A stretch of 64,000 nucleotides of DNA from Amycolatopsis cihanbeyliensis (GTDB taxonomy: Bacteria; Actinomycetota; Actinomycetes; Mycobacteriales; Pseudonocardiaceae): the NCBI RefSeq assembly GCF_006715045.1, contig NZ_VFML01000001.1, positions 2,696,501-2,760,500 of the forward strand. The letters are read 5' to 3'. The notes beneath the pieces are model-generated. The model was not told the origin of the DNA. It made no database searches and worked only from the letters and a program-made list of their open reading frames with translations. How positions within the stretch are numbered: the first letter of the stretch is position 1; each line of letters starts with the position of its first letter. The position numbers and the translations under genes were made by a program. Shown in pieces: positions 14,068-30,604 of the stretch.

Positions 14068-14322
14068 CTGATCCTCCTGGATCTCCTGGCACTTGCTACT
14101 GGGTAGAACGACCGCACGTGCCGGCCGGTTCCCGTCGTCGGTAAAGGCAACTTTACTCACACCCGTGGCCGGCCGAGCCACCCCCGTGGAGATCAACCGG
14201 CCGAGCTGGGCAGGCGACCGCCCGGCGCACATCAGCCCACTGGCCTATTGCCCCGCTACGCCCGTGCGGGTGAAGCTCACCTGGGCGTGTCCGGATCGTA
14301 ACCGGCAAGGAGTCAGCACATC

Positions 14323-15849: not shown

Positions 15850-15854
15850 TCCCC

Positions 15855-16598
15855 GTGCGGCCCGCGTCCCCGAACCGGCATCGGCTGGTCACCGCCTACC
15901 TGCTGGGCGTGGCCAGCCTGCTGGCCGCCGAGCTGGCCGTGGCGGGCGCCCTGGTGCTGCCGCTGGGTCGGGCGGACGGCGTCGTCGCCGGCAGCGCGCT
16001 CCCCGCCGCGGGGGTGCCGACCGGGGTGACCGGTACGGGCGACGCGCGGGAGTCCGCCGACCCGACCACGAGCCCGCCGCCGGAGCGGAAGGAACCCGAA
16101 CCCACGGATTCGCCGGACCAGGCGGCCGCCTCCGCGCCCCCGGCCGCGGAGGCGGGGCAGCAGCCCGGCACCATCAGGCTGCCCGACGGCGGGACGGCGC
16201 GGTTGGTGCGCGAGCGGGTCGTCGGCCCGAACGCGGTGCTGCCGATCCCGGGGAACCTGGACGAGGCGAGCTGGTGGGGCGTCGGCCTCGGCGCTCCCGG
16301 CGGCGCCAGCCTGTTCGCCGGCCACGTCAACTGGCACGGGCAGGTGGGTCCGTTCGCCGAGCTGTGGGACGCGCGGGTGAACGAGCCGGTCACGGTGACC
16401 GACGAGGCGGGCAAGACCTGGACATACCGCATCACCCAGGTGATCACGCTGGGCAAGAACGAGCTGCCGCAGCGCGCCGACGAGCTGTTCAGCCAGTACG
16501 GCAAGCACCGGATCGTCCTGGTGACCTGCGGCGGGCGCTGGGTCGGCGGCTCGACCGGCTACGCCGAGAACCGCGTCGTCATCGCCGAACCCGGCTGA
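15855..16598 (+). CDS. Class F sortase
   Basis: Membrane-bound cysteine transpeptidase that would attach the upstream surface protein to the cell wall or process it. The 247 residues show an N-terminal membrane anchor (about 10-35), a Pro/Glu-rich linker, and the catalytic domain from about 105. The sortase triad is visible: His157 in AGHVNW, Cys225 in LVTCGG and Arg240 in YAENRVV. The start is GTG at 15855, 5 nt after the stop of the surface-protein gene, so the two are certainly one transcription unit. This arrangement is typical of actinobacterial class F sortases. Confidence 0.9.
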   Translation: MRPASPNRHRLVTAYLLGVASLLAAELAVAGALVLPLGRADGVVAGSALPAAGVPTGVTGTGDARESADPTTSPPPERKEPEPTDSPDQAAASAPPAAEAGQQPGTIRLPDGGTARLVRERVVGPNAVLPIPGNLDEASWWGVGLGAPGGASLFAGHVNWHGQVGPFAELWDARVNEPVTVTDEAGKTWTYRITQVITLGKNELPQRADELFSQYGKHRIVLVTCGGRWVGGSTGYAENRVVIAEPG

Positions 16599-16636
16599 GC
16601 CCCGAAGTAGGGCACGGTGAGACAGGGTGAGACACA

Positions 16637-18640
16637 ATGGCGACCATGGCCCATTATCTGGTGACCGGCGCGACCGGGTTGATCGGCAGGCACGTCACCC
16701 GGCTACTGCTGGCCAGGCCGGATACCGAGCGGGTGACGCTGCTGGTGCGCGCGGCCTCCCGCGACCGGCTCGCCGCCATGGTCGCCGGCTGGCCGAACCC
16801 GGAGCGGACCACGCTGCTCACCGGCGACCTCACCGAACCGCACCTCGGTGTGGACGAGCGGGCCCGCGACGAGCTGCGCGAGACGGTCGACCATCTGGTG
16901 CACCTGGCCGCACTGTACGACCTCACCGCGGACGAGGAGGCCAACGTCGCCGCCAACGTCCAGGGCACCCGGCACGTCCTCGACCTGGCCGCCGACCTGC
17001 GGGTGGGCTGCCTGCACCACGTGTCCTCGGTCGCGGTGGCAGGGGACTACGCGGGCGTGTTCACCGAGGAGATGTTCGACGCCGGCCAGCGGCTGATCAC
17101 GCCGTATCACCGCACCAAGTTCGAGGCTGAGCGGCTGGTCCGCGAGCAGCACGAGGTGCCGTGGCGGGTGTACCGGCCCGCGGTGGTGGTCGGGCATTCG
17201 ACCACCGGCGAGATGGACAAGGTGGACGGCCCGTACTACCTGTTCACCGCCATCGGCAAGCTGGCGGCGCTGCCCAACCTGCCACTGGTCGGGCCGGACA
17301 TCGGCGACACCAACCTGGTCCCGGTGGACTACGTGGCCGCCGCGCTGGTGGAGCTGGCGGGCAAGGACGGCCTGGACGGGCGGACCTTCCACCTGGTCAG
17401 TCCCGAGCCACAGCCGGTAACCGAGGTGTACAACGCGTTCGCGCGCGTCGCCGGGGCACCCACCATCGACCTCGAGCTGGACCAACGGCTCTCCCGCGGC
17501 ATCACCGGACTGCTGCGGCTGACCGAGCATGTACCCGGGGTCACCATCGCCAGGGACGCCGTGCTGGAACGGCTCGGCATCCCGCCGGTCCTGCTGGAGA
17601 CCATGACCTTCCCCTCGGTGTTCTCCTCGGCGGCCACCCGCAGGGCGCTGGCCGGGTCGGGCGTGGACGTGCCGCGGCTGGCGGACTACGCACCGGTGCT
17701 GTGGCGGTACTGGCGGGAGCACCTCGACCCCTTCCGCGCCCGCGAGCACGGACCGCGCGGCGAGTTGGACGGCCGGCACGTGGTGATCACCGGGGCGTCC
17801 TCCGGCATCGGCAGGGCGACCGCGCTCGCGGTCGCGGCCGAGGGCGGCATCCCGCTGCTGGTCGCGCGCAGGCGTGCCGAACTGGAGGAGGTGCGCGACG
17901 AGATCGCCGCCGCCGGCGGGTACGCGGCGGTGTATCCGGCGGATCTCACCGACGAGGACTCGGTGCACAAGGCGGTCGAGGCGATGCTGTCCGAACACGG
18001 GCAGGTGGACATGCTGGTGAACAACGCGGGCCGGTCGATCCGGCGGTCCATCCGGCTGTCCTACGACCGCTTCCACGACTACGAGCGCGCGATGGCGATC
18101 AACTACTTCGGCGCGGTGCGGCTGATCCTCGCGCTGCTGCCGCACATGTCCGAGCGGAAGTTCGGGCACATCGTGAACGTCTCCTCGATCGGGGTGCAGG
18201 GCATCGCCCCGCGGTTCTCCGCCTACGTCGCGTCCAAGGCCGCACTGGACTCCTTCGCCAAGATCGCCGCCACCGAGACACATGGCGACGGGATCACCTT
18301 CACCACGATCCACATGCCGCTGGTGCGCACCCCGATGATCCGGCCGACCAAGATCTACGACGCGTTCCCGACAAAATCACCCGAACAGGCGGCCCGGATG
18401 GTGGTCGCCGCGTTGAAGAACCGGCCCAAGCACCTCGGCACCCCGATCGGCCAGGCCATCCAGCTCGCCTACGCGCTCACCCCCGGGCTGACCGATGCGG
18501 TGGCATACCAGGGTTTCCGGATCTTCCCGGACTCCGCGGCCGCGGGCGGATCCGGCGAGATCAAGCTCGGGCGCGGCGAGCGGCACCTGTCCAGGGCGGC
18601 CACCGCGCTGGCTCGGCTCACCCGCGGATTCCACTGGTAA
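16637..18640 (+). CDS. Two-domain SDR protein, AcrA1-like fatty acyl-CoA reductase
   Basis: A 667-residue fusion of two NAD(P)-binding reductase domains. The N-terminal extended-SDR/thioester-reductase-like domain (1-350) has GATGLIG near residue 12 and a Tyr-x3-Lys in YHRTKFEAE. The C-terminal classical SDR (from about 378) has TGASSGIG, NNAG and YVASKAAL. This order and length match the mycobacterial AcrA1/FcrA-type enzymes, which reduce acyl-CoA to aldehyde or alcohol for wax or branched lipid synthesis. The ATG at 16637 or the second ATG at 16646 could be the start. No sulfotransferase or wax synthase is nearby, so the lipid product is unknown. Confidence 0.82.
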   Translation: MATMAHYLVTGATGLIGRHVTRLLLARPDTERVTLLVRAASRDRLAAMVAGWPNPERTTLLTGDLTEPHLGVDERARDELRETVDHLVHLAALYDLTADEEANVAANVQGTRHVLDLAADLRVGCLHHVSSVAVAGDYAGVFTEEMFDAGQRLITPYHRTKFEAERLVREQHEVPWRVYRPAVVVGHSTTGEMDKVDGPYYLFTAIGKLAALPNLPLVGPDIGDTNLVPVDYVAAALVELAGKDGLDGRTFHLVSPEPQPVTEVYNAFARVAGAPTIDLELDQRLSRGITGLLRLTEHVPGVTIARDAVLERLGIPPVLLETMTFPSVFSSAATRRALAGSGVDVPRLADYAPVLWRYWREHLDPFRAREHGPRGELDGRHVVITGASSGIGRATALAVAAEGGIPLLVARRRAELEEVRDEIAAAGGYAAVYPADLTDEDSVHKAVEAMLSEHGQVDMLVNNAGRSIRRSIRLSYDRFHDYERAMAINYFGAVRLILALLPHMSERKFGHIVNVSSIGVQGIAPRFSAYVASKAALDSFAKIAATETHGDGITFTTIHMPLVRTPMIRPTKIYDAFPTKSPEQAARMVVAALKNRPKHLGTPIGQAIQLAYALTPGLTDAVAYQGFRIFPDSAAAGGSGEIKLGRGERHLSRAATALARLTRGFHW

Positions 18641-18708
18641 CCACCGACACGCCCGGTACACCTCGTGCCTGACGGGAATGACACGCGGTACGCGGGTAAC
18701 GTCGGGGT

Positions 18709-19617
18709 ATGGCGTCCGAGCGAGACAGTGGGCTCATGCCGTTGCGTCGAGAATTCGACCAGGTGTGGCATGGCTTCGACCGTAATCAGGTTAAGCAGTA
18801 CGTCGAGTATCTGGAAGACCAGTTACGACGGCTGTTGAGTGATCGCGATTCGGCGATGGCGCAGGCGAGCACCTTGTCCCGCGAGCTGGAGAACGCGCGC
18901 CGCGAGCTGGCCAAGCTGCACACCAGGGTGGACGAGCTGTGCAAGCCACCGGAGCGGCCGGAGGACCTCGACGAGCGGATGCAACGCACCGTGGACCTGG
19001 CGAACACCAGGGCCGAGGAGATCGTGACCCGCGCCGAGACGGCCGCCGAGGAGCACTGGGCGAAGGCCGGTGAGGCCTCGGGCAAGCTGCGTGCGCGTTA
19101 CGCGAAGCTGCTCGGTGAGCTCGAGTCGCACGCCGAGGCCATGGAGAACGAGCACCAGGCGGCGCTGGCCGAGACCAGGGCCGAGGTGGAGCGGCTGACC
19201 ACGGAGGCAGCTCAGCGGCGCGAGCAGCTCGACCAGGAGGCCGAGCGCAGGCGCAGGGCCATCGAGCGTGATTTCGACGCCAAGATGGCCGCGGAGAAGG
19301 CGGCGCTGGAGAAGCACATCGCCGACCAGCAGACGGCCAGTAAAAACCAGGCCGAGCGGCGGATCGCCGAGGCGATCGCCGAGGCGAAGCGCAGGCTGGA
19401 CGAGGCGGCGACGGAGGCCGAGCGGCGGGTGGACGAGGCCACCACCGAGGCCGAACGCCGCACCACCGAGGCGACCCAGCAGGTGGAGCGGCTCACCGAC
19501 ATCAGGGAGCAGGCCCGCCTGCGGGTGCGCAAGGCGCAGGACCTGCTCAAGGAGGGTGAGCCCGCGCTGACCCCGTTGCCCGAGGAGGAGACCGAGCTCG
19601 CCCCCTCCGCCTCCTGA
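18709..19617 (+). CDS. DivIVA/Scy-like coiled-coil protein
   Basis: A 302-residue highly charged protein. Residues about 12-45 (FDQVWHGFDRNQVKQYVEYL) resemble the N-terminal DivIVA membrane-binding module. Almost all of the rest is predicted coiled coil rich in Ala, Glu and Arg, with repeated EAERR and DEATTEAERR units near 220-265. Proteins of this type (often called cellulose-binding or Scy/FilP-like in Streptomyces) organise polar growth. The start at 18709 is kept, but ATG 18736 is possible. A strong hairpin terminator follows. Confidence 0.72.
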   Translation: MASERDSGLMPLRREFDQVWHGFDRNQVKQYVEYLEDQLRRLLSDRDSAMAQASTLSRELENARRELAKLHTRVDELCKPPERPEDLDERMQRTVDLANTRAEEIVTRAETAAEEHWAKAGEASGKLRARYAKLLGELESHAEAMENEHQAALAETRAEVERLTTEAAQRREQLDQEAERRRRAIERDFDAKMAAEKAALEKHIADQQTASKNQAERRIAEAIAEAKRRLDEAATEAERRVDEATTEAERRTTEATQQVERLTDIREQARLRVRKAQDLLKEGEPALTPLPEEETELAPSAS

Positions 19618-19635
19618 GCCGCGGTACGACACGAA

Positions 19636-19673
19636 AAACGGGACGCCCCTGAAGCAGGAGGGGCGTCCCGTTT
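19636..19673. terminator. Bidirectional hairpin terminator
   Basis: Perfect 15-bp stem, AAACGGGACGCCCCT at 19636-19650 and its complement at 19659-19673, with an 8-nt loop. It ends in TTT and starts with AAA, so it can work for both the coiled-coil gene and the convergent fasciclin gene. Confidence 0.88.
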
Positions 19674-19686
19674 CCGCGGGAGCGGA

Positions 19687-20367
19687 TCAGCTCTCCGGCA
19701 TCATCACCTTGTCGATCACGAACACGGTGGCGTTCGCGGTGGGCACGTTGCCGCACAGCACCTTGGCCCCGTTCACGGTGAAGTCCTGGCCGGAGCCCTC
19801 GACCGTGAGGCTGCCACCCTGGACCGTCTCCAGCGAGCCGGCGTCGACGACGCCCTGCGCGTCCATCCGCTCCGGAACCACGTGGTAGGTCAGGATGTCG
19901 GTGAGCTGCTGCTTCTTCGACTCGTCGGTCAGCAGCGCGTTCAGCGTCTCCTTCGGGAGCGCTTCGAACGCCGGGTTGGCCGGGGCGAACACGGTGTAGG
20001 AGGCGTCCGACTTGTTCAGCGTGTCGACGAGACCGGCCGTCTTGACCGCCTTGGTGAGGCTGGTGAGCAGCGGGTTGTTGCTGGCCGCGGTGCCCACCGG
20101 GTCGTCGATCATCCCCTGCACCGAACCCTCGTCACTGGGGTCGGTCGGGACCTGAGCGCAACCGGGACCGTAGACGTCGTCCGCGGTGGTCATCCCGTTG
20201 CTCGCGGTCGGCGAGCTGGTCGTCTGCTCGCTGGTCGGCGACGGGGACTGGGTGTCCTGGTCCTGCCCGGAGTCGCTCGCCTGGTCGTCACCACCACACG
20301 CGGAGAGCAGCAGCGCCATCGCGGCGACCGCACCGGTGGCGGCGAAGCGGGTTTTACGAACGTGCAT
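19687..20367 (-). CDS. Fasciclin-domain lipoprotein (MPT83-like)
   Basis: A 226-residue lipoprotein. The ATG at 20367 has AGGAGG about 10 nt upstream. The signal peptide ends in a lipobox, LLLSAC, with the lipidated cysteine near residue 23, followed by a Ser/Thr/Gln-rich linker. One FAS1 domain fills about 85-222 (TVFAPANPAFEALP and YHVVPERMDAQGV are its two conserved boxes). It resembles the mycobacterial surface lipoprotein MPT83, a known member of the SigK regulon, and here it also sits in a sigK locus with its own SigK-type promoter at 20416-20443. Function is probably adhesion or envelope interaction. Confidence 0.92.
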   Translation of the reverse strand: MHVRKTRFAATGAVAAMALLLSACGGDDQASDSGQDQDTQSPSPTSEQTTSSPTASNGMTTADDVYGPGCAQVPTDPSDEGSVQGMIDDPVGTAASNNPLLTSLTKAVKTAGLVDTLNKSDASYTVFAPANPAFEALPKETLNALLTDESKKQQLTDILTYHVVPERMDAQGVVDAGSLETVQGGSLTVEGSGQDFTVNGAKVLCGNVPTANATVFVIDKVMMPES

Positions 20368-20415
20368 GGGGTTGTTCCTCCTCGATAGCTGCCGTAATCG
20401 GCGGTTCCACTCGGT

Positions 20416-20443
20416 ATTCGGGGCGACTGCCCCCGTGGATTGG
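20416..20443 (-). promoter_or_regulatory. Candidate SigK promoter of the fasciclin gene
   Basis: On the minus strand, CCAATCC (20443-20437) is followed after 15 nt by CCGAAT (20421-20416). Mycobacterial SigK promoters are described with CCATCC and CCGAAT elements. Transcription would start about 40 nt before the ATG, leaving room for the AGGAGG ribosome site. Confidence 0.65.
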
Positions 20444-20477
20444 TCGGATCGGAGAAAATCGGGCGATCCGGCCCGTG

Positions 20478-22043
20478 TTACTGCGCGGTGCAGAAGATGG
20501 AGTGCCATCCGGTCGCGCCGTCCGGAATCGGCGGTACCCGGTCACTCGTTTGTGTGTATCCGGAGCGGTCGGTCGCCCGGCATTCGATGTTGTGCCCTCC
20601 GGGCTCGAGATCGAGCTCGATCCGCCACATGCGCCAGGTGTCCACACCGACCTGAGTGGACAGTTCGGCCTCCTGCCACGGTCCACTGTCGACCCGGACC
20701 TCGACGCGCTCGATGCCGGTCTGCTGGGCCCAGGCGATCCCGGCGGCGGTGGTCCTGCCCGCGGGCAGTTTCTGGAAGGCGCCGGGCCGGTCGATCCGGG
20801 ACTGTGTCTTGATCGGGGCCCGCTCGGCCCAGCCACGTTCCTCCCAGTAGGTGACCTTGTCGAACGTGGTCAGCTCCAGGTCGACCAGCCACTTGGTGGC
20901 CGAGAGGTAACCGTACAGGCCGGGGGTGACCATCCGGACCGGGAAGCCGTGCTCCAGCGGCAGCGGCTCACCGTTCATCCCCAACGCGATCAACGCGTCC
21001 CGGTCCCGCTCGAGCAGTACCTCCACCGGAGTACCCGCGGTGTAGCCGTCCACGCTGGTGCTGAACACCTGCTCGGCACCGGGACGCACCCCCGCCTCGT
21101 TCAGGATGTCCCTGATCGGTACCCCGACGAAGTTCGATGTGGACACATATGGCCCGCCGACCTGGTTGGACACGCAGGTCATGGTGATCGTCTTCTCCAC
21201 GAGCGGGCGGCCCATCAGATCGTCGTAGCTCAGGTTCAGCTCGCGCTCGACCATGCCGTGCACCCGCAACCGGTACCCGTCGGTGGGCAACCGCGGCACC
21301 CGGAGTGCGGTGTCCACCCGGTAGAAGTCCGGGTTCGGGGTGAGGAACGGCGGTGTGCCCGCGCCGGTGAAGTCGGCCCCTGCCGGGATCGGCGGCGCCT
21401 TCCGCGCGGGGACGATCCTGCCGATCGCGCGCCGGGACTGCTCGGCGCCGCGGCTGCCGATCAGCAACTGGCCCACCGCACCGGAGGCGGCGACGCCGGC
21501 TGTCACCGCCCCGGAGGTGATGAGAAACCGGCGTCGCCCGGAACCGCCGGACGAGTCCGCCTGCTCGGCGTCCTCGTCATCGGCGACCTCGGGCCGCGGC
21601 GCCTTGCGGTGCAGCCACCAGAAGGTGGCCAGCCCGGCGAGCGCCGCGACAACAGGGGCCACCAGGCCCAGTACCCCGAGCGTCGGGCGGGCCAATGCGG
21701 CGGCAATGCCAACGGCGCCGAACACGCCGATGACGATCAATCCGGGCACCGGACTTCGGCGGGAGAGCAGCCCGGCCACCGCTGCGAGCAGCAGGATGAC
21801 CACTCCCATACCGAGCAGCAGCACGATTTTGTCGTTCTCGCCGAACTGCTCGATCGCGAATGCCTTCACCGGTTCCGGGGTGAGGTCGATCGCGGTGTTC
21901 CCGACCGCGAGGTACGGGCTGGAGCTCGGTTCCAGCAAACCCGCGACGAGATGCCCCGCGGCAAGCGCCCCGACGGCCGCGAGCACTCCGATCAGCGCCG
22001 CTGCCATCCGGCCGATTGGCGTTCTCCGCGTTCCGGTTCCCAT
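20478..22043 (-). CDS. Membrane molybdopterin-dependent oxidoreductase, sulfite oxidase family
   Basis: A 521-residue protein with about five N-terminal membrane helices (to about residue 165), an RRRFL-type arginine-rich segment, and then the sulfite-oxidase-family molybdopterin domain. The molybdenum-ligand cysteine is Cys290 in TMTCVSNQ. The C-terminal part (about 420-521) is the Mo-co oxidoreductase dimerisation domain ending in RATDRSGYTQ. It would act on the outer face of the membrane; the substrate may be sulfite or an oxidised protein residue. The ATG at 22043 lies exactly 7 nt after a SigK-type -10 element, so translation is probably leaderless. It follows rskA. Confidence 0.9.
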   Translation of the reverse strand: MGTGTRRTPIGRMAAALIGVLAAVGALAAGHLVAGLLEPSSSPYLAVGNTAIDLTPEPVKAFAIEQFGENDKIVLLLGMGVVILLLAAVAGLLSRRSPVPGLIVIGVFGAVGIAAALARPTLGVLGLVAPVVAALAGLATFWWLHRKAPRPEVADDEDAEQADSSGGSGRRRFLITSGAVTAGVAASGAVGQLLIGSRGAEQSRRAIGRIVPARKAPPIPAGADFTGAGTPPFLTPNPDFYRVDTALRVPRLPTDGYRLRVHGMVERELNLSYDDLMGRPLVEKTITMTCVSNQVGGPYVSTSNFVGVPIRDILNEAGVRPGAEQVFSTSVDGYTAGTPVEVLLERDRDALIALGMNGEPLPLEHGFPVRMVTPGLYGYLSATKWLVDLELTTFDKVTYWEERGWAERAPIKTQSRIDRPGAFQKLPAGRTTAAGIAWAQQTGIERVEVRVDSGPWQEAELSTQVGVDTWRMWRIELDLEPGGHNIECRATDRSGYTQTSDRVPPIPDGATGWHSIFCTAQ

Positions 22044-22050
22044 ATTCGCT

Positions 22051-22078
22051 ATTCGGAGCCGGGGCGGCGCCGGTTTGG
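22051..22078 (-). promoter_or_regulatory. Candidate SigK promoter of the sulfite-oxidase-like gene (leaderless)
   Basis: Minus-strand CCAAACC (22078-22072), a 15-nt spacer, then CCGAAT (22056-22051). The -10 element ends 7 nt before the ATG at 22043, so the first base of the mRNA is expected at or next to the start codon, which also explains why no ribosome site is seen. Confidence 0.7.
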
Positions 22079-22870
22079 TCAGGCCGGAACGGTCATTTTC
22101 AGCACCGGGTCCGTGGTGGGCTGCGCCGAGCCACCGGCGGGCTCGACCGTAACGCCCATCCAGGCCGTGCCCTCCGGGATGGTGCGCACCACCGGGGTGG
22201 TCCGCCCGGCCGCCGAGCGCTCGAGCACGCCAGCCGACACGAACTTGTCCTGCCCGGATCGGATGAACCACAGCTGGTATGCCCGGTCCTCCGACAGCGG
22301 GGCGGTGTGGTCACCCATGAACATGGCCTTGCCGAGCCGCGCGGATACGACGGTGGTGGCGGTCAGCCCGCCCTCGCCGGATGCGGTGATCAGCCGGGCG
22401 TCCGGCGCGGACAGTAGTTCGGACATCTCGGTGCCGCGGGCGGTCGCCTGCTCCATCCGTTCCCGCGCGCTGTTCAGCTCCTGCTGGTTCTGCAGCGCGA
22501 TGGTGCCGAAGGTCCCGGCGAGCGCGAGCCCGGCGACCGCGGCCGCCACCGCGAACCTGGTGGCCCAGCGCCGCTTGCGGGACAGCGGCACCACCTCGGC
22601 CACACCCTCAGCACCGGTTTCCGGTTCCACTCCGGTCTCCGGCGGGTCCTGGCGCGTCCTGGCGACCTCGTCCAGCACCCTGCGCTTGAGCCCTTCCGGC
22701 GGTGCGGTCGCGACGGCCGTCCCGAGCCTGCCCGCGGCCTCGCGCAGTTCGCGGACCTCCCGCGTGCAGTCGGCGCACTCGGCGAGGTGCCGCTCGAACT
22801 CCGACCGCTCCTCGCCGGTGAGCGCGTCCACGGCGTACGCGCCGGTCAGCGCGTTCATATGCGTGCTCAT
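22079..22870 (-). CDS. rskA: Anti-sigma-K factor
   Basis: A 263-residue transmembrane anti-sigma factor that should hold SigK at the membrane until regulated proteolysis. The N-terminal zinc-type anti-sigma motif is HLAECADC (His-x3-Cys-x2-Cys) near residue 30. A single membrane helix lies near 120-140 (FAVAAAVAGLALAGTFG). The outer RskA C-terminal domain includes RAYQLWFIRSGQ and GVTVEPAGGS. The start ATG overlaps the sigK stop in an ATGA, so the two are translationally coupled. A longer open frame upstream is not needed. Confidence 0.93.
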   Translation of the reverse strand: MSTHMNALTGAYAVDALTGEERSEFERHLAECADCTREVRELREAAGRLGTAVATAPPEGLKRRVLDEVARTRQDPPETGVEPETGAEGVAEVVPLSRKRRWATRFAVAAAVAGLALAGTFGTIALQNQQELNSARERMEQATARGTEMSELLSAPDARLITASGEGGLTATTVVSARLGKAMFMGDHTAPLSEDRAYQLWFIRSGQDKFVSAGVLERSAAGRTTPVVRTIPEGTAWMGVTVEPAGGSAQPTTDPVLKMTVPA

Positions 22871-23478
22871 GAGCCCACCCCCAGGCAGTCGCGCAGCCTG
22901 ATCAGGCCGTCTCGAAGCCGGGTCTTCACCGTCGGCACCGGCGCGTCGAGCAGCTCCGCGGCCTCCCGGCAGCTGTAGCCGCGGTAGTAGGTCAGCACCA
23001 CCGACTCGCGTTGCAGCTCGGTGAGCGTGGACATGCATCTACGGACCTGTTGCTGTTCCATCCGGGAGGCGACCGTCTCGGCGACCTCGTCGAAGGGACG
23101 CCCGGTGTCCCGCGAGTACGCCCTGGTCTCCCGGTCACTGGAGGCCTGTGCCGAACGGACCCGGTCCACGGCACGCCGGTGCGCGAGCGTCAACACCCAG
23201 GTCATCGCCCTGCCCCGCTCCTCACGGTACTTGGTCGCGGTGCGCCAGACCTCGACCAGCACCTCCTGGGCCACCTCCTCGGACTGCGCCGCGTCGCGCA
23301 GGATCTGCCGGATCACCCCGAGTACCGGGCCGGCCACCAGGTCGTAGAGCCGGTCGAAAGCGCCGTCATCGCCCTTGGCCACCGCGGCGAGGAGTCGCTC
23401 GGCGGTCGGGGCCGCTGCCACGGCAGGCGCGGGCCCCCATTCCTCCGGCCCGCTACCCGGGTCGGTGGGTTCTCGCAT
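22867..23478 (-). CDS. sigK: ECF RNA polymerase sigma factor SigK
   Basis: A 203-residue ECF sigma factor. Region 2 (about 35-105) contains AFDRLYDLVAGPVLGVI and the DNA-melting part YREERGRAMTWVLTLAHRRAVDRVR. Region 4 (about 140-195) contains LTELQRESVVLTYYRGYSCREAAELL and the helix-turn-helix VPTVKTRL. It is coupled to rskA by an ATGA overlap. AGGAGG lies 5 nt before the ATG at 23478, and only 34 nt separate it from the upstream DUF1365 gene. Its transcription therefore probably starts at the SigK-type promoter before that gene, giving positive autoregulation. Confidence 0.94.
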   Translation of the reverse strand: MREPTDPGSGPEEWGPAPAVAAAPTAERLLAAVAKGDDGAFDRLYDLVAGPVLGVIRQILRDAAQSEEVAQEVLVEVWRTATKYREERGRAMTWVLTLAHRRAVDRVRSAQASSDRETRAYSRDTGRPFDEVAETVASRMEQQQVRRCMSTLTELQRESVVLTYYRGYSCREAAELLDAPVPTVKTRLRDGLIRLRDCLGVGS

Positions 23479-23512
23479 CGCCGCCTCCTCGCGATCTCGG
23501 AACGCGCTGCAC

Positions 23513-24310
23513 TCAGCGGTTCGATTGTTTACCGGACGCCTGGTTCGGGAAAGTCGGGGTCACCCGAAGCCCGCCCTGCGGTGCCCGCTTCGGGTGACGG
23601 AAGAACGGGGCCCTGCGCAGCCACAGCGCGATCCCGTGCCTGCGGATACCCATCGACACCCGCTGCGGCACCAGCGGCCTGCGCAGCAGCATCGACAGCA
23701 GGCGGCGCGGGGTCGCCACGGACCTCCTGCCGGTGACGGCCGCGGTCAGCAACGGCTGTTCCTGGTCACGGAGCTGCACCCGCACCTGGAGACGCTCCGT
23801 GGGAACCGGCAGCTTCATCCGGTAGCCGCCGCGCTCGGGAAGGAACGGGGAGACGTAAAACCGCTTGTCCGTGGAGGCGTACCCGTCCGCATCCGGGTGC
23901 AGCAGGTAGCAGTGCCGCTCGCCGTAGGTGTTGTGTACCTCGGCGACCACGCATTCGAGCTCGCCATCGGCACCGTGACACCAGAAGACGCTCAGCGGGT
24001 TGAACACGTAGCCGAGCACCCGCGCGTGCGCCAGCATCAGCACCCGCCCGCCAGTGAGGTCGATTCCGTGTCCGGCCAGCAAGTCCCCCAGGTTCTGCCG
24101 GATCGTCCGGGTAGGCGACCCCACATGATCACGGGAGTCGAACCGGGCGAAAGGGCGCAACCACCTCGGCAGCTCCGGCAACGCGTCCAGGTCGACCAGC
24201 CACAGGTACTGCCGGTGCCGGAACGATCGGCGCGGGCCGGTGTGCCTGGTGTGCGCGACGACCGCCTCGTAGAGCGCCGGCACCGCCGTCGGGTTCGCCT
24301 CGACCTGCAT
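23513..24310 (-). CDS. DUF1365-domain protein
   Basis: A 265-residue member of the DUF1365 family (mycobacterial Rv0448c-like), found beside cyclopropane-synthase-like genes in fatty-acid modification operons. Typical segments are RQYLWLVDLDALPELP, the GYVFNPLSVFWCHG box and VHNTYGERHCYLL. Its chemistry is not established. I place the start at ATG 24310 rather than 24319 because a SigK-type -10 element ends exactly 7 nt before it, the same spacing as at the sulfite-oxidase-like gene. It is the first gene of the sigK-rskA unit and is divergent from the UfaA1-like gene. Confidence 0.9.
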   Translation of the reverse strand: MQVEANPTAVPALYEAVVAHTRHTGPRRSFRHRQYLWLVDLDALPELPRWLRPFARFDSRDHVGSPTRTIRQNLGDLLAGHGIDLTGGRVLMLAHARVLGYVFNPLSVFWCHGADGELECVVAEVHNTYGERHCYLLHPDADGYASTDKRFYVSPFLPERGGYRMKLPVPTERLQVRVQLRDQEQPLLTAAVTGRRSVATPRRLLSMLLRRPLVPQRVSMGIRRHGIALWLRRAPFFRHPKRAPQGGLRVTPTFPNQASGKQSNR

Positions 24311-24317
24311 AGCCACC

Positions 24318-24345
24318 ATTCGGAGCCGGCTGGAAGGAAGATGGG
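24318..24345 (-). promoter_or_regulatory. Candidate SigK promoter of the DUF1365-sigK-rskA unit (leaderless)
   Basis: Minus-strand CCCATCT (24345-24339), a 15-nt spacer, then CCGAAT (24323-24318), ending 7 nt before ATG 24310. The spacing is identical to that at 22051-22078 and 20416-20443. The -35 is the closest of the three to the CCATCC described for mycobacterial SigK. Confidence 0.7.
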
Positions 24346-24367
24346 TCGATGAGCTGCGTCACATCGC

Positions 24368-24395
24368 AGGTCCGCTGCCCGGTCCGGCTCCGAAT
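24368..24395 (+). promoter_or_regulatory. Possible SigK promoter of the UfaA1-like gene (weak -35)
   Basis: The plus strand carries the same CGGCTCCGAATA context (CCGAAT at 24390-24395) as the divergent promoter. The hexamer 22 bp upstream (AGGTCCG) is a poor -35 match. If used, the mRNA would have a leader of about 30 nt with GGAGGAGG before ATG 24431. Confidence 0.45.
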
Positions 24396-24430
24396 ACGAA
24401 GCAGCGCGAACCCGGCGGAGGAGGACGTGA

Positions 24431-25696
24431 ATGGCGGCTTCGTATTCGGCTTCGTATTCGGAGAACCGGCACGGGGGTGCCGCGGGGCGGCTCGAGCAGG
24501 CGGTGCGGAGCCTGTTCGGGGTCGATCTCCCGGTCGGGCTGACCGCATGGGACGGCAGCAGCGCGGGGCCCGCCGATGGGCCACGGGTGCTGCTGCGCAA
24601 CCGCAGGGCCCTGCGGCATGTGCTCTACGCGCCGGGCGAGCTCGGCCTGGCCAGGGCGTTCGTCAGCGGAGATCTGGAAGTGGAAGGCGATCTGGCCGAG
24701 GGGCTGCGCCGATGCTGGGAGCTGGCCGGCGTGGCCGCCAGGCGGCCGGGAAGGCTCGGGCTGGCGCGGTGGGCGCTGCTGCTGCGCACCGCGATCGGCC
24801 TCGGCGTGCTCGGCCCGCGCCCGCGGCGGCCTGCGAGTGAAGCCCGGCCGCGGGGAGTGCCGCACAGCAGGCGGCGGGACCGCGCGGTGATCGCCCACCA
24901 CTACGACGCGGGTAACGAGTTCTACGAGTTCCTGCTGGACCCGCGGCTCGCCTACTCCAGCGGATACTGGACCTCGGACGATCCCGGCTACACCCTGGCC
25001 GACGCGCAGGAGGACAAACTCGAGCTGATCTGCCGCAAGCTGAGCCTCACCGAAGGGACGCGTCTGCTTGACGTCGGCTGCGGCTGGGGCTCGCTGACCT
25101 GCTACGCGGCGGAACGCCACGGCGTGCGGGTGACCGGCGTGACCCTGTCGGCGCGGCAGGCCGAGTTCGTCCGGTCGCGGGCGGCGGAGCTCGGCGTCGC
25201 CGACCGGGTGGAGGTGCGCCTGGAGGACTACCGGGAACTCGACGGCGCCCGGTACGACGCGATCGCCTCGATCGAGACGGGCGAGCACGTCGGGGAGGTC
25301 AACTACCCCGTGTACGCGGCGACCCTGCACCGGATGTTGCGGCCACACGGGTACCTGCTGTTGCAACAGATGTCCCGTCCCGGCCCGGCTCCGGGCGGTG
25401 GCGCGTTCATCGAGTCCTATATCGCGCCGGACATGAGCATGGTGCCGGTGAGCCGGACACTGGACCACCTCGAGCGCGCCGGGTTCGAGATACGGGGTGT
25501 GGAAGCCATGCGCGAGCACTACGTTCGCACGGGACGGGCGTGGACGGCCACACTGGAACGGCAATGGTCGGAAGCGGTGAGCCTGATCGGTATCGAGCAG
25601 GCGCGAGTATGGCTGCTGTACCTCGCGGGCGGAACTCTCGCTTTCGAGGACAACCGGATGGGCGTCAACCAGGTCCTCGCGCGGAAGGTGGGGTGA
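24431..25696 (+). CDS. Cyclopropane-fatty-acid-synthase family methyltransferase (UfaA1-like)
   Basis: S-adenosylmethionine-dependent enzyme that methylates unsaturated phospholipid acyl chains. The 421-residue protein has an N-terminal acyl-carrier region (about 15-140), the family box HHYDAGNEFY at 156-165, the SAM-binding motif LLDVGCGWGS at 212-221, and SIETGEHVGEVNY around the bicarbonate-site region. Mycobacterial UfaA1 (Rv0447c), in the equivalent place beside sigK, is reported to make 10-methyl branched (tuberculostearic-type) acids; cyclopropane or other products are possible. ATG 24431 has GGAGGAGG upstream. The DUF1295 gene follows directly and may reduce the methylated product. 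Confidence 0.9.
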   Translation: MAASYSASYSENRHGGAAGRLEQAVRSLFGVDLPVGLTAWDGSSAGPADGPRVLLRNRRALRHVLYAPGELGLARAFVSGDLEVEGDLAEGLRRCWELAGVAARRPGRLGLARWALLLRTAIGLGVLGPRPRRPASEARPRGVPHSRRRDRAVIAHHYDAGNEFYEFLLDPRLAYSSGYWTSDDPGYTLADAQEDKLELICRKLSLTEGTRLLDVGCGWGSLTCYAAERHGVRVTGVTLSARQAEFVRSRAAELGVADRVEVRLEDYRELDGARYDAIASIETGEHVGEVNYPVYAATLHRMLRPHGYLLLQQMSRPGPAPGGGAFIESYIAPDMSMVPVSRTLDHLERAGFEIRGVEAMREHYVRTGRAWTATLERQWSEAVSLIGIEQARVWLLYLAGGTLAFEDNRMGVNQVLARKVG

Positions 25697-25700
25697 TGAC

Positions 25701-26483
25701 GTGGTCGTGCTCGCGCTCGGGGCGGCGGCGCTGGGGACGGCGCTGGCCGTCGTCGGCGTCACTTTCCTGCTCGCTCGGCGCCGCGGCCGCTACGACCTGA
25801 TCGACTCGGTGTGGGGAGCCGGGTTCGCGGCCATCGCGGTGGTGACGCTGGCGATCACCGGCGCGCCCAACCTGCCCGGGGTGGTCGTGAGCGGGTTGAC
25901 CGTCGTATGGGGGCTGCGGTTGTCGGTGCACATCCACCGGCGCAACCGGGGAAAGCCCGAGGATCAGCGCTACCGGGATATTCTGGCCCGGGCGCGCGGG
26001 AACCCGGCCGTGCACATGCTCGTGCGGGTGTATCTCACCCAGGCCGTCGTGATGTGGGTGGTGTCCTGGCCGGTCCTGCTGGCCCAGTACGAGGCGGGCT
26101 CCGGGTTCACCGTGCTGGCGTGGCTCGGGGTCGCGGTGTGGATCGTCGGTTTCGTGTTCGAGGCGACCGGGGACGAGCAGCTACGCCGGTTCAAGGCGGA
26201 CCCGGCGAATGCCGGAGCCGTACTGGATCGCGGGTTGTGGCGGTACACCCGGCATCCGAACTACTTCGGCGACGCCTGCGTCTGGTGGGGCCTGTACTTG
26301 CTGGCCTGCCATCATCCGCTCGGTGCGGTGACGGTGTTCTCGCCGATCCTGATGACCTGGCTACTCGCCCGCGGCACCGGGAAACCCTTGCTGGAACGCC
26401 AACTCCGGGAGAGTCGACCGCGTTACGCCGAGTACGTCGAACGCACCAGCGGCTTCGTTCCCCTCCCACCCCGCAAGCGGTAA
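25701..26483 (+). CDS. DUF1295 membrane protein (steroid-5-alpha-reductase-like)
   Basis: A 260-residue integral membrane protein with about six helices. The C-terminal half carries the DUF1295/steroid 5-alpha-reductase-type signature: GLWRYTRHPNYFGDACVWWG, then ERTSGFVPLPPRK at the end. Such proteins are thought to bind NADPH and reduce a double bond. The start is GTG at 25701, 4 nt after the UfaA1-like stop, so they form an operon. Coupling of a methylenating enzyme with a reductase fits branched fatty-acid synthesis; this is inference. Confidence 0.88.
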   Translation: MVVLALGAAALGTALAVVGVTFLLARRRGRYDLIDSVWGAGFAAIAVVTLAITGAPNLPGVVVSGLTVVWGLRLSVHIHRRNRGKPEDQRYRDILARARGNPAVHMLVRVYLTQAVVMWVVSWPVLLAQYEAGSGFTVLAWLGVAVWIVGFVFEATGDEQLRRFKADPANAGAVLDRGLWRYTRHPNYFGDACVWWGLYLLACHHPLGAVTVFSPILMTWLLARGTGKPLLERQLRESRPRYAEYVERTSGFVPLPPRKR

Positions 26484-26493
26484 CCCACCCAGC

Positions 26494-26619
26494 GTGTCTG
26501 CTCCCCACGCGCATACGTTGGCCATTCACATACGCGAGTTTGCTGCTCACGTAACCGTGTTGGCCATTCATGTAACCGAGTTTGCCGTTCGCGTTGGCGA
26601 GTTTGCCGCGCGCGGGGAA
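26494..26619. repeat. Six-unit 21-bp periodic repeat (GAGTTTGCCG family), locus A
   Basis: Six consecutive 21-bp units, for example GAGTTTGCTGCTCACGTAAC(C) at 26536-26556, GTGTTGGCCATTCATGTAAC(C) at 26557-26577 and GAGTTTGCCGTTCGCGTTGG(C) at 26578-26598. The same family recurs at 42380-42551. The period is a multiple of three, so open frames through it spell a seven-residue repeat, but no gene signals are seen. Both copies lie just downstream of a gene end. Confidence 0.8.
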
Positions 26620-26919
26620 GAGATGGGTGAATGCGGGAGACGGGGCAACTCAGGGTTGGGTCTCGGGCACACCTTCGGCACCCCGTGAAGCACTGGCGCA
26701 CCCCGCATCACCCCCGGCAGACCTGCTCACCAACGCCAACACCCCACAGAACGACACTCCCCACCCCACCGGCCACCCCGATCGTTTCGAACACACATTC
26801 GGGTGAATATCGATCGACAGCGTCGCCTCCACCCCATTCTGCCGAGCATCTCGATATCATTGAGGGCGCGGAAAGATACCGATCCGATCCACAGCAGGAT
26901 CCCCCGGACGAGGACAAAA

Positions 26920-28067
26920 CCCCCCGGAGACATACTGGACACCGTAGAAGCCAACGAGCGGGTGATCGCTCAAGCCGAGACGCGGAGGGCGGTGATGCTA
27001 CTGGCCCGGTTCGCCCAGGAAAGTGGGGTCCGAAGTCGGTAGTGAAGGAAGTGGCCGGGCAGGTGCGGTGGACCCCACACCGGGTCGAACGCACCCTCGC
27101 CCTGGGGCTCGACCCCACCACCCGCCTACCGTGCACCCTGGCCGCCTCCCAAGCCGGGGTGATCGACCAGGACCGGGCACGGGCCGTGTCCGAACCCACC
27201 GCCGTGCTGTCGGATCAGCAGGCGGCGGAAAGTGGACCGACGCATCGCCACCAAACTGGCGGGTAAAGACCCCACGCAGGCGCGGCGCGCGGCACGGCAA
27301 CAGGCACCGGCCGTCGACCCCGAGAGGGCCGCCCAAGCGGGCACGAGCCCGGCGGGAACAACGGTCGCTGGACTTGGCGCACCAGGAAGATCGGGTGTCC
27401 ACCCTGATGGCCGACCTACCCACCGAGGTCGCCACCGCCATCTACGCCCCCTGCGACCGCATCGCCCGACAACAGCGGCGACAGGGAGACAAGCGCACCC
27501 TGAAGCAGTTACGGGCGAACGTGCTCACCGACCTCGCCCTACGCGAGGACGGCACCACCCGGGCGCCCCGCACCGAAGTGTTCCTCTACCTCGCCGCCAG
27601 TTCACTGCTGGAGTTGGATAAGCAACCCGGGTACCTGGCCGGGCACGGGCACATCCCAACCGCACTGGCACCCGAACTCACCTCCCGACCCGACAACGTG
27701 TGACGCCGCCCGCTGACCGACCCCACCACCGGCCACCCCACCGACCTCGGACGCACCCGATACCGGCCCACCGCCGCACTGGACGAGTCCGTACGAGAAC
27801 GCGACCGGGAATGCCGAGACATCGGATGCCACCCACCCACCCAACCCTGCCAAAACGACCACACCACCGGATGAACCCAAAGCCACACCACCAACGCGAA
27901 GGAGTCGGTCGGCTACCGCGAACAAGACCACCACCTCAAAAACCTACCCGGATGGGGATGGACCTACGACGTCATCGACGGCACACCCACCATCACCACA
28001 CCCCACAGAGACACCCACACCAACCCCTCCACAACCCCCTCACCCCAGACGACACCCCCCCTTCTGA
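26920..28067 (+). pseudogene. Decayed DUF222/HNH endonuclease (13E12-repeat type)
   Basis: Pieces of one DUF222-HNH protein appear in order in three frames: VEANERVIAQAETRRAVMLLARF, then VRWTPHRVERTLALGLDPTT and AGVIDQDRARAVSEPT, then DRRIATKLAGKDPTQARRAA, then LADLPTEVATAIY-like and RTLKQLRANVLTDLAL. After an in-frame TGA at 27701 the frame continues as RRPLTDPTTGHPTDLG, CRDIGCHPPTQPC and NDHTTG, which is the degenerate HNH zinc-type motif. A second TGA and the closing GWGWTYDVIDG part follow. At least three frameshifts and two stops show it is dead. This family is multicopy and often mobile or intron-like in actinomycetes. Confidence 0.82.
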
Positions 28068-28096
28068 GCGGGGTCGTTCGCCGACACGCCGGGCGC

Positions 28097-28142
28097 GACT
28101 TATGAAGTACAGACCACAATCGCGGTATCATTATCATAAGTC
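28097..28142 (+). promoter_or_regulatory. AT-rich promoter region with inverted repeat before the unknown/ImmA gene pair
   Basis: GACTTATGA (28097-28105) and its exact complement TCATAAGTC (28134-28142) flank an AT-rich stretch containing TATCAT. Between them lies ACCACAATCGCGG (28113-28125), a near copy of the sequence in front of the following XRE gene. Together these look like a regulated promoter. Confidence 0.55.
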
Positions 28143-28160
28143 CGAGCGAGGGAGGCGCCG

Positions 28161-28835
28161 ATGTCCTCGGTTACTCGCATCATGTCCTACGAAAGAGAAG
28201 GGCCTGGTCAGGTTGACGAGCGGCTCGCCGAGCTCGGCCTGAAACGGGAGTACCTGGAGCAGGCGATCTGGGCGGGCGTACGGGACCGGCGCCTTGCCGA
28301 TGAGTTCGAGCCGGGGACGGCCGCCGGGCTACGGGACTGGATGGGCCGCGTACGGGAGCTGCGCAAGGTCCTCGCGGAGAACGGCTGGCGTCCGGTCAAC
28401 CCGGCGAACGCTCCCTTCGCCCGCAGCCCGGACGGCGACGTGCTGCTCGGTGTGATGCTGGGTAACCAGCACACCGGGCGTCCCGGTGGGCGGCTGGAGA
28501 GCACCTACCCCAAAGGCACCGCGATCGAGAACATCACCGCGCGCAACGACAGTGATCAGTACTCGCTGCCCGAGATCGACGCCATGCTCGGGCTGCCGGA
28601 CAGACAGCCCGAACCCGCGAAGGCCTGGTTCCTGGTGACCTTCCACGAGTACGACCAGGAAGGCCGCGTGGCCAGGGTCCGCTACGAGGTCGCCCAGCCT
28701 GCTCCGAGCAGGGCCGACCAGAAAATCGACAGTTGGGCCACCCGCTACTGCCTGCGGCCGATCGAGTTCCCGCCGATCATTGATCTCGGCAGCGATCACC
28801 ACGAACCGATCGACGTGCGGGTGGCTCGGCGCTGA
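28161..28835 (+). CDS. Unknown protein paired with the XRE-ImmA/IrrE gene
   Basis: A 224-residue soluble protein without a family I recognise. ATG 28161 has GGGAGG 5 nt upstream. The N-terminal half is helical and charged (QVDERLAELGLKREYLEQAI); the C-terminal half is mixed, with WFLVTFHEYDQEGRVARVRYE. No membrane segment, signal peptide or catalytic motif is seen. The XRE-ImmA/IrrE gene starts 46 nt after its stop on the same strand. ImmA/IrrE peptidases usually cleave a partner repressor, or form toxin-antitoxin-like and phage-defence pairs, so this protein may be the partner; this is inference only. Confidence 0.7.
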   Translation: MSSVTRIMSYEREGPGQVDERLAELGLKREYLEQAIWAGVRDRRLADEFEPGTAAGLRDWMGRVRELRKVLAENGWRPVNPANAPFARSPDGDVLLGVMLGNQHTGRPGGRLESTYPKGTAIENITARNDSDQYSLPEIDAMLGLPDRQPEPAKAWFLVTFHEYDQEGRVARVRYEVAQPAPSRADQKIDSWATRYCLRPIEFPPIIDLGSDHHEPIDVRVARR

Positions 28836-28864
28836 CCCCGATCACTCGGCTTCGCAGGCCGCAC

Positions 28865-28877
28865 ACCACAATTGCGG
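28865..28877 (+). promoter_or_regulatory. Candidate operator in front of the XRE-ImmA gene
   Basis: ACCACAATTGCGG at 28865-28877 differs at one base from ACCACAATCGCGG at 28113-28125. The core CCACAATTGCGG is a near palindrome (10 of 12 positions), as expected for a dimeric XRE repressor. It ends 4 nt before the ATG at 28882. Confidence 0.5.
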
Positions 28878-28881
28878 AGAC

Positions 28882-29946
28882 ATGGTTACCCCTGAGCGAA
28901 TCAGCCTGGCCAGGAAACGGCGTGGCCTGACCGTCGCCGAGCTGGCGCGACAGATCGGCGTGAGTGCGCAGAGCGTGACCAACTACGAGCGTGGCAGGCA
29001 GCAGCCCGGCGACCGCGCCCTGCGGGCACTCGCCGACGCCCTGAACTTTCCGGAATCCTTCTTCACCGCCCCACCGACGGCGGAACTACCGGAGGGCGCC
29101 GTAGCCTTTCGCGCCCGCAGCAAGCTCAGCCAGGCTCGGCGGGCCTCGGCGCTGAGCGTCGGTTCGCTTGCCGTCGAGTTCAACGCCTGGCTGGAGCGAA
29201 CCTTCCAACTGCCCGAGGCCGACGTGCCGACGCTGGAACGTCCCGATCCGGAGACCGCGGCCGAAATGACTCGCGCCCGGTGGGGACTCGGCAACGAACC
29301 GATCGCCAACATCATCCACCTGCTGGAGGCGCACGGTGTCCGCGTCTTCTCCCTCGCGACCGAGCACGCCGAGGTCGACGCCTACTCCTTCTGGCATGCC
29401 GGCACCCCCTACGTCTTCCTGAACACCAGCAAGACCCCGGAGCGCAGCCGCTTCGACGCGGCGCACGAGCTGGCCCACCTGGTCCTGCACGCGGGCGCGA
29501 CCGAGGTCGGCGGGCCCGAGGCCGAGCAGCAGGCGAACGCCTTCGCCGGGGCCTTCCTCATGCCGACCGCGAGCGTCCGCGGCCGCATGCCGCAGGCACC
29601 GCTGGTCGACCAGATCATCGAGGCCAAACGGATCTGGCGGGTCTCCGCCCTCGCCCTCACCTACCGGCTGCACGAGTTGTCCATGCTCAGCGACTGGCAG
29701 TACCGCTCCGCCTGCGTCGAGCTGAGCAGGCGTGGCTACCGCAGTGGTGAACCCACCGGCATCGCGGGAGAGACCTCACAGCTGCTGTCCAAGGTATTCG
29801 GCACGCTGCGGGAAAGCGGCCGGACCATGCGGGACGTCGCCGCGGAGCTGTCGCTCACCCCCGACGAACTGTCCGGCATGGTGTTCGGCCTGGTCTTCAA
29901 CGCCGCGGGCCGGCAACCGCTCGCGCCGCTGCGCCTGGTGAGGTAG
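28882..29946 (+). CDS. XRE-family regulator fused to an ImmA/IrrE metallopeptidase
   Basis: A 354-residue fusion. Residues 5-60 form the XRE helix-turn-helix (LARKRRGLTVAELARQIGVS, SVTNYERGRQQP). Residues about 150-270 form the ImmA/IrrE peptidase domain with the zinc motif H195-E-L-A-H199 in AAHELAHLVLH. The C-terminal part continues the Zn-peptidase fold (EAKRIWRVSALALTYRL). Members cleave repressors, often in mobile elements, stress response or antiphage systems. ATG 28882 is preferred over the upstream in-frame start because the helix-turn-helix begins immediately. It is preceded by the unknown partner gene and shares its operator-like site. Confidence 0.9.
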   Translation: MVTPERISLARKRRGLTVAELARQIGVSAQSVTNYERGRQQPGDRALRALADALNFPESFFTAPPTAELPEGAVAFRARSKLSQARRASALSVGSLAVEFNAWLERTFQLPEADVPTLERPDPETAAEMTRARWGLGNEPIANIIHLLEAHGVRVFSLATEHAEVDAYSFWHAGTPYVFLNTSKTPERSRFDAAHELAHLVLHAGATEVGGPEAEQQANAFAGAFLMPTASVRGRMPQAPLVDQIIEAKRIWRVSALALTYRLHELSMLSDWQYRSACVELSRRGYRSGEPTGIAGETSQLLSKVFGTLRESGRTMRDVAAELSLTPDELSGMVFGLVFNAAGRQPLAPLRLVR

Positions 29947-29950
29947 GCGC

Positions 29951-30604
29951 TCACCGCGCCGGGGCGATTCGCAGGCCGCGCAACGCCTTCTGCCGCACCA
30001 GCGACGGCAGCTGTGCGCGCCAGGCCCGGCGCAGCCTGGCGTGCAGGTCCCGCTGCCCGGTCAGAGCCTGGGAAAGCAGCTGGATACCGAGGAACTCCCC
30101 GACCATGCCCTCCGCGACCTGGCGCAGGTTCAGCCCCGAGCGGAGTTCACCCGCACGGTCGGCCGACTTCAGCAGGTCCCGCACGATGGTGGTCCAGCCG
30201 ATGATCTGACCGGCACCCGCGCGATCGAAGATCGTTGCCTCGCGCAGCAGCCGGTTGCCGATCCTGGTCATCAGATCCTCGTCCAACTTCCGAACGAAGG
30301 CGAAGGACAGGTCGATCAAGGTCTGCGCCGGGCCGAGGCCACGGCGCAACAACTCGTCCCGCAACGCGTACGACTCCAGCGCCTGGTGCTCGACCAACGC
30401 GACAGCGAGCGCTTCCTTGGACCGGAAATGGCAGTACAGTGCGCCCTTGGTCACCGCGGCACGCTCGCACACCGCATGCAGGTTGGCACCGGAGAAGCCG
30501 TCCCGATCGAACACCTCGGCCGCGGCGACGAGCAGGTTGCGCCGGGTGCGCGCGGCTCGCGCCCGCCTGTTCACGACTCCTGTGCTGTCCTCCAACACGC
30601 TCAT
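29951..30604 (-). CDS. TetR-family transcriptional regulator
   Basis: A 217-residue regulator. The N-terminal helix-turn-helix (about 18-65) reads FSGANLHAVCERAAVTKGALYCHFRSK, close in style to gamma-butyrolactone-receptor-like TetR proteins of actinomycetes. The remainder is the helical ligand-binding and dimerisation domain (LSFAFVRKLDEDLM, EGMVGEFLGIQLL). Its ATG overlaps the stop of the upstream NTF2-like gene by 4 bp (ATGA), so both are cotranscribed. It ends 4 nt from the convergent XRE-ImmA gene. The ligand is unknown. Confidence 0.85.
   Translation of the reverse strand: MSVLEDSTGVVNRRARAARTRRNLLVAAAEVFDRDGFSGANLHAVCERAAVTKGALYCHFRSKEALAVALVEHQALESYALRDELLRRGLGPAQTLIDLSFAFVRKLDEDLMTRIGNRLLREATIFDRAGAGQIIGWTTIVRDLLKSADRAGELRSGLNLRQVAEGMVGEFLGIQLLSQALTGQRDLHARLRRAWRAQLPSLVRQKALRGLRIAPAR

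Follow-up and report, generated by a model that had tools for sequence, protein, structure and literature searches.

A predicted autoregulated SigK-RskA regulon with conserved leaderless and leadered target genes in Amycolatopsis cihanbeyliensis and other actinobacteria

Three minus-strand units of Amycolatopsis cihanbeyliensis (Pseudonocardiaceae), encoding a fasciclin-domain protein, a sulfite-oxidase-family molybdopterin oxidoreductase (Mo oxidoreductase) and DUF1365-SigK-RskA, carry a promoter-like motif of identical geometry, raising the question of which sigma factor reads it and whether the resulting mRNAs possess a leader. The units lie in a window of 64,000 nucleotides (contig NZ_VFML01000001.1, positions 2,696,501 to 2,760,500, forward strand), the whole stretch of DNA analysed here. 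Our answer, held at a probability of about 0.88, is an autoregulated SigK-RskA regulon whose targets are divided into leaderless and leadered genes, a division conserved among relatives; recognition by SigK and the transcription start sites are what we infer from sequence.

The three -35 elements, CCAATCC (fasciclin), CCAAACC (Mo oxidoreductase) and CCCATCT (DUF1365), each start 22 bp before the start of CCGAAT on the minus strand, exactly as the initial annotation had described. Equally exact is the 7-nt interval that it had noted in two units, where CCGAAT, 7 nt and ATG follow one another at Mo oxidoreductase (ATG 22043) and DUF1365 (ATG 24310). The fasciclin ATG (20367) lies 48 nt past its -10 element and is preceded by GAGGAGG. 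The mechanically called DUF1365 open reading frame opens at ATG 24319, within the -10 element, so a start there would fall upstream of the predicted RNA. If transcription begins ~7 nt past the -10 element, the start codon coincides with the predicted transcription start, and the mRNAs of some targets would therefore be leaderless. The CCATC-type -35 and CCGAAT -10 elements match what we take to be the mycobacterial SigK promoter consensus, which is said to have been defined by Veyrier in 2008; DUF1365, CMAS and DUF1295 genes are presumably neighbours of sigK in Mycobacterium as well.

SigK relatives (E ≤1e-30) are present in 54 of 100 genomes of the family, and 40 same-family loci, each 12-19 kb long and drawn from 38 of these 54 genomes, formed a training set together with window positions 14001-30000. 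Within it, a CC[AC]ATC-to-[CT]CGAAT distance of 22 occurs 17 times, and the remaining distances between 10 and 40 add up to 4. A score matrix, seeded with the motif of the initial annotation itself, was grown from sites in the 40 training loci and the window, with a site defined by a score above 18. The held-out set comprised 80 named SigK loci (among them Actinopolyspora, Prauserella, Saccharopolyspora, Streptomyces, Lentzea, Frankia and Actinomadura), reduced to 71 by dropping nine whose overlap with the training loci exceeded 30% of sampled 60-base words. It holds 137 register-22 sites in 69 of the 71 loci, counts that are not independent events because the loci are related to one another; 12 other registers (16-28) give 0-6 sites each. 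In an order set of 20 loci from seven other families of the same order, lying above the SigK cut-off and picked for family spread from 70 genomes, 25 register-22 sites occur in 17 loci, with 0-4 at other registers. The fetched stretch contains a relative of the window RskA (>80 bits) at 40/40 training, 77/80 named and 6/20 order SigK loci, and it contains neither the trio of flavin adenine dinucleotide (FAD) oxidoreductase, DUF1365 and CMAS nor fasciclin or Mo oxidoreductase at 16/40, 33/80 and 10/20, respectively. Two same-genus genomes (loci L076 and L077) carry an additional SigK-RskA pair that has a CCAGTCC-CCGAAT site to itself. A SigK with 65% identity to that of the window is encoded on a contig titled Candidatus Melainabacteria (L156), which is probably actinobacterial and mis-binned.

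Association of the motif with SigK was evaluated by counting the strict pattern CCMATCC-N12-GNN-YCGAAT in the 100 family genomes, divided into 50 with a SigK relative above 200 bits and 50 others, four of which have weaker relatives. The pattern occurs at 57 sites and its reversed control at 2. It is present in 29/50 SigK genomes versus 6/50 others (51 versus 6 sites; Fisher p=2e-6), a comparison that is partly circular because the pattern was partly learned from sigK loci of the counted genomes. Of the 51 sites, 28 have a sigK relative no further than 20 kb away. A count limited to the 23 sites that are separated from any listed sigK relative by >20 kb or by lying on a different contig gives 19/50 versus 6/50 genomes (p=0.005), a weaker association than the full count. 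Twenty of the 57 sites were fetched, all but two of which lie away from sigK; seven stand ahead of a fasciclin gene, one ahead of a close (60%) and one ahead of a distant (30%) Mo oxidoreductase, and one, near sigK, ahead of an FAD gene. Since sites away from sigK stand ahead of fasciclin and Mo oxidoreductase genes, the motif also follows target families and not just the locus. The SigK-type identity proposed in the initial annotation is thus borne out at the level of sequence: the sigma factor scores above the cut-off of the SigK model, and the motif tracks SigK loci and the same gene families across actinobacteria, even away from sigK. Among the fetched sites that could be assigned no target, two (L265 and L267), both strong and from genomes of a single genus, lie at related 422-amino acid lipoprotein-like proteins, possibly a lineage-specific SigK target.

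Comparison of start distances separates the targets. A start was counted when any in-frame start lay exactly 7 nt past the -10 hexamer, provided that the frame was related to that of the target, and counts are given for the training, held-out and order sets in turn; a ribosome-site check with 4-base strings proved too loose to contribute to them. Mo oxidoreductase has such a start at 10/10, 18/19 and 2/3 sites (30/32 in total, ATG or GTG; the two exceptions, L163 and L250, are at 8 nt), and DUF1365 at 1/1, none and 4/4 (5/5 relatives' sites standing before DUF1365), so the interval that the initial annotation used to fix two start codons is retained at orthologues. The hydrolase gene shares it (6/6, 2/2 and none; 8/8), as does dipZ, with relatives that bear a site at two loci (1/1, 1/1 and none). 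Fasciclin never does (0/9, 0/10 and 0/4; 0/23), and sigK as first gene rarely (0/20, 2/46 and 1/8; 3/74). At strict-pattern sites, none of seven further fasciclin genes has a start at 7 nt, and the close Mo oxidoreductase has one. For Mo oxidoreductase, the 7-nt start is kept whether the gene follows rskA (L073), occupies the strand opposite to sigK (L045 and L065) or is at a distance from it (L273), which ties the split to the target gene, most clearly for Mo oxidoreductase and fasciclin. The leaderless/leadered split is, as judged from predicted starts, a conserved property of the target gene. The geometry also fits published mycobacterial rules, in which excerpts of one study call RTG at +1 necessary and sufficient (PMC4633059).

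The initial annotation called this a local regulon and proposed a genome search. With CCAATCC-N12-GNN-CCGAAT at ≤2 mismatches, the 7.4 Mb genome yields 29 matches, compared with 11 for the reversed-pattern control; the three window sites are the sole 0-mismatch match, one of two 1-mismatch matches and one of 26 2-mismatch matches. Twenty of the 26 others were inspected, and two beyond the window were kept, ahead of an FAD oxidoreductase (17.5) and a hydrolase (24.4), because of their target genes, both of which relatives hold in the sigK operon. The promoter goes with SigK loci, and the regulon probably extends past the local genes, with candidate sites at two distant operons. A full regulon listing by pattern was abandoned owing to the many chance matches (a looser pattern gives 109 versus 38 in its control). 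In one relative (L039), hydrolase, FAD, DUF1365, CMAS, sigK and rskA genes are consecutive on one strand; in this genome, the set is split over three places with a SigK-type site at each, an arrangement that we read as a broken-up operon. The second DUF1365 gene, behind the FAD oxidoreductase, lies ~0.86 Mb from the window locus.

Several observations weigh against this reading, in addition to the seeded matrix, the relatedness of the held-out loci, the partial circularity of the genome comparison and the weaker association away from sigK. The strict pattern is absent from 21/50 SigK genomes, and 10/20 fetched sites have no assignable target. Among the three local sites, that of DUF1365 is the weakest. 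The kept FAD site is outscored by six inspected matches without a known target (18.0-22.7), and in this genome real and chance sites cannot be told apart by score alone. Starts at 7 nt are mixed for FAD (6/9, 13/27 and 2/3; 21/39) and CMAS (2/8, 16/21 and none; 18/29), and the hydrolase start lies ~35 nt away in this genome, unlike at all eight relatives' sites; the split is therefore not absolute.

Four other explanations compete with a SigK regulon of this kind. That the sites are three look-alikes of a common hexamer pair carries a negligible probability: CCGAAT alone is indeed common (188 in 1.45 Mb, both strands), but the register peak, the held-out loci and the SigK association all speak against chance. 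Another extracytoplasmic function (ECF) sigma factor with overlapping specificity could read the motif, making its closeness to sigK indirect, and such a reader has candidates, with many sigma-like proteins per family genome in first-look counts and strict matches in 6/50 genomes lacking a strong SigK. We consider it very unlikely, given that more than half of the sites in SigK genomes cluster at SigK loci, that 44/50 genomes without a strong SigK also lack the strict pattern, and that the reversed control matches only twice in 100 genomes.

Even with genuine SigK promoters, transcription might begin a few nucleotides off the predicted position and give very short leaders, as the 8-nt distance at L163 and L250 would allow; retention of exactly 7 nt at nearly all Mo oxidoreductase sites, with ATG or GTG, and the enrichment of mycobacterial RTG at +1 over +2 to +5 (excerpts of PMC4633059) make this unlikely. 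It is likewise unlikely that transcription of the Mo oxidoreductase gene comes chiefly from the sigK-rskA operon, with its own promoter minor. The shared strand and a -35 element immediately past the rskA stop would suit such an arrangement, but the gene lies on the strand opposite to sigK in 8/11 fetched family loci holding it and away from sigK in one relative (L273), and those with a site keep the same distance. An autoregulated SigK regulon with leaderless and leadered targets thus remains the preferred reading.

In the proposed mechanism, the three sites would serve as promoters for the SigK whose gene lies among them. RskA would keep SigK inactive until a signal, probably oxidative, arrives; the release of SigK is proposed by extension from Mycobacterium tuberculosis. 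SigK would then bind CCAATCC/CCCATC-type -35 and CGAAT -10 elements at a fixed register and drive its own operon as well as the genes for Mo oxidoreductase and fasciclin; two or more further operons (FAD oxidoreductase-DUF1365 and hydrolase-CMAS) are probable targets too. The fasciclin gene, and sigK where it is first, would retain a leader. The site ahead of DUF1365-sigK-rskA implies the same autoregulation as that of M. tuberculosis sigK, which acts via the Rv0449c promoter (PMC7509140, in part).

Table 1. Features of the SigK locus and of two candidate operons elsewhere in the genome
Feature	Position	Strand	Remarks
SigK-type promoter of fasciclin gene	20416..20443	-	-35 CCAATCC 20443-20437; -10 CCGAAT 20421-20416; matrix score 28.6
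SigK-type promoter of Mo oxidoreductase	22051..22078	-	-35 CCAAACC 22078-22072; -10 CCGAAT 22056-22051; matrix score 26.6
SigK-type promoter of DUF1365-sigK-rskA operon	24318..24345	-	-35 CCCATCT 24345-24339; -10 CCGAAT 24323-24318; matrix score 20.3
Weak candidate promoter of divergent CMAS gene	24367..24395	+	CAGGTCC; 23-bp register; CCGAAT 24390-24395; score 15.4
Fasciclin-domain protein, MPT70-like	19687..20367	-	226 amino acids; Pfam Fasciclin 2e-34; MPT70 1nyo 6.8e-37
Sulfite-oxidase-family molybdopterin oxidoreductase	20478..22043	-	521 amino acids; Oxidored_molyb 3.2e-43; predicted leaderless, ATG 22043
rskA, anti-sigma-K factor	22079..22870	-	RskA_C 3.4e-26 and RskA_N 5.3e-07, both above cut-off; ATGA overlap with sigK
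sigK, ECF sigma factor	22867..23478	-	203 amino acids; NF007228 259.7 bits, cut-off 226
DUF1365 protein	23513..24310	-	265 amino acids from ATG 24310; PF07103 3.7e-70; predicted leaderless
CMAS, cyclopropane-type fatty-acyl methyltransferase, divergent	24431..25696	+	PF02353 2e-72
DUF1295 protein, behind CMAS gene	25701..26483	+	PF06966 4.5e-74
FAD oxidoreductase with second DUF1365 behind	L285, G000:C1:1856000-1866500		Candidate site, score 17.5; GTG exactly 7 nt past -10
Alpha/beta hydrolase with CMAS-like gene behind	L286, G000:C2:230000-238000		Site score 24.4; start ~35 nt away, GGAGG before

The sigma and anti-sigma proteins of the window (Table 1) belong, by sequence, to the SigK and RskA families, and rskA is adjacent to sigK, as in a SigK-RskA system. 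The best solved-structure relative of the window SigK is SigK 4nqw, and Cys148 and Cys198 align with C133 and C183 of the M. tuberculosis protein (numbering that assumes a 17-residue tag in 4nqw), with both cysteines present in 23/23 aligned sequences. 4nqw is M. tuberculosis SigK (excerpts of PMC7406223), and C133 and C183 have been mutated in studies of that protein; the pair occurs in 56% of ECF19, the SigK group (excerpts of PMC7509140), so it is not strictly defining. The Mo oxidoreductase, whose N-terminal part is hydrophobic by eye, scores under the cut-offs of the SoxC, SorA, SorT and MsrP models. Its -35 element directly abuts the rskA stop codon (the two together at window 22072-22081), the GA of which fits the bases preferred before the -35 element. 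The divergent CMAS gene was dropped as a counted target on account of its low score at register 23, where chance matches occur. The 12-mer CCGAATACGAAG (window 24390-24461) occurs as one plus-strand copy ahead of the CMAS start and as a tandem minus-strand pair just within the gene; the pair yields the ASYSASYS N terminus, and the copies form an inverted repeat around the start codon.

A possible role is suggested by enzyme classes. In Rhodobacter, according to excerpts of one report, UfaO (DUF1365), UfaD (a NAD/FAD-binding desaturase) and UfaM (an S-adenosylmethionine-dependent fatty-acyl methylase) jointly produce a furan fatty acid with a protective effect against singlet oxygen, and the three genes are raised in a chrR mutant (PMC7380195). 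The CMAS, FAD oxidoreductase and DUF1365 classes are all present in this genome, each with at least one candidate SigK-type site. All three occur within the fetched stretch at 13/40 training, 36/80 named and 4/20 order SigK loci; most fetched SigK stretches do not show all three. Some solved-structure fasciclin proteins among the matches listed are named astaxanthin-binding. Portions of other reports describe light induction of mpt83 and mpt70 homologues, not dipZ, in M. kansasii (PMC9861118) and lowering of RskA by ultraviolet light in a soil actinobacterium (PMC8965627). Photo-oxidative stress as the signal or role of SigK is offered as a lead, not a result. Taken further, SigK might be an actinobacterial singlet-oxygen sigma factor controlling a furan-fatty-acid-type pathway of CMAS, FAD desaturase and DUF1365 oxygenase, a membrane-bound Mo oxidoreductase and fasciclin, with leaderless enzymes made when ribosomes favour leaderless initiation and with fasciclin and SigK under leader control; this seems to us possible, if on balance improbable.

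A SigK-type regulon at this locus is, on sequence grounds, real and conserved and of a kind already known; the leaderless/leadered split is its unusual regulatory detail. The analysis carries a regulon known from work on tuberculosis antigens into many other actinobacteria, provides a searchable promoter definition, would fix two start codons and offers laboratory soil strains as hosts for testing the SigK signal. A gene-by-gene split within one sigma regulon also opens to test the question of whether selection has made the manner of translation initiation a component of a stress response. The portions of the mycobacterial SigK literature examined mention neither Mo oxidoreductase nor hydrolase targets, and a search of limited reach, which leaves novelty unproven, noticed no link of such a SigK with leaderless mRNA or Mo oxidoreductase.

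Among known systems, the Mycobacterium SigK-RskA regulon (mpt83-dipZ-mpt70 and Rv0449c-sigK) shares SigK and RskA relatives, a fasciclin target and sigK autoregulation with the predicted one; in Mycobacterium, mpt83, dipZ and mpt70 are reported to have SigK-dependent promoters (excerpts of PMC7509140 and PMC9861118). The present system differs in its Pseudonocardiaceae-type family, in operon parts that lie at distant places and in the leaderless/leadered split described here. The Rhodobacter Ufa genes, considered with the RpoE-ChrR singlet-oxygen system (ECF11), encode the same enzyme classes as the candidate SigK targets; the sigma group differs. Mycobacterial leaderless mRNAs (PMC4633059 and PMC3898074, in part) likewise have a -10 element right before RTG and no ribosome site; here, by contrast, the predicted leaderless starts belong to certain target genes of a single ECF regulon.

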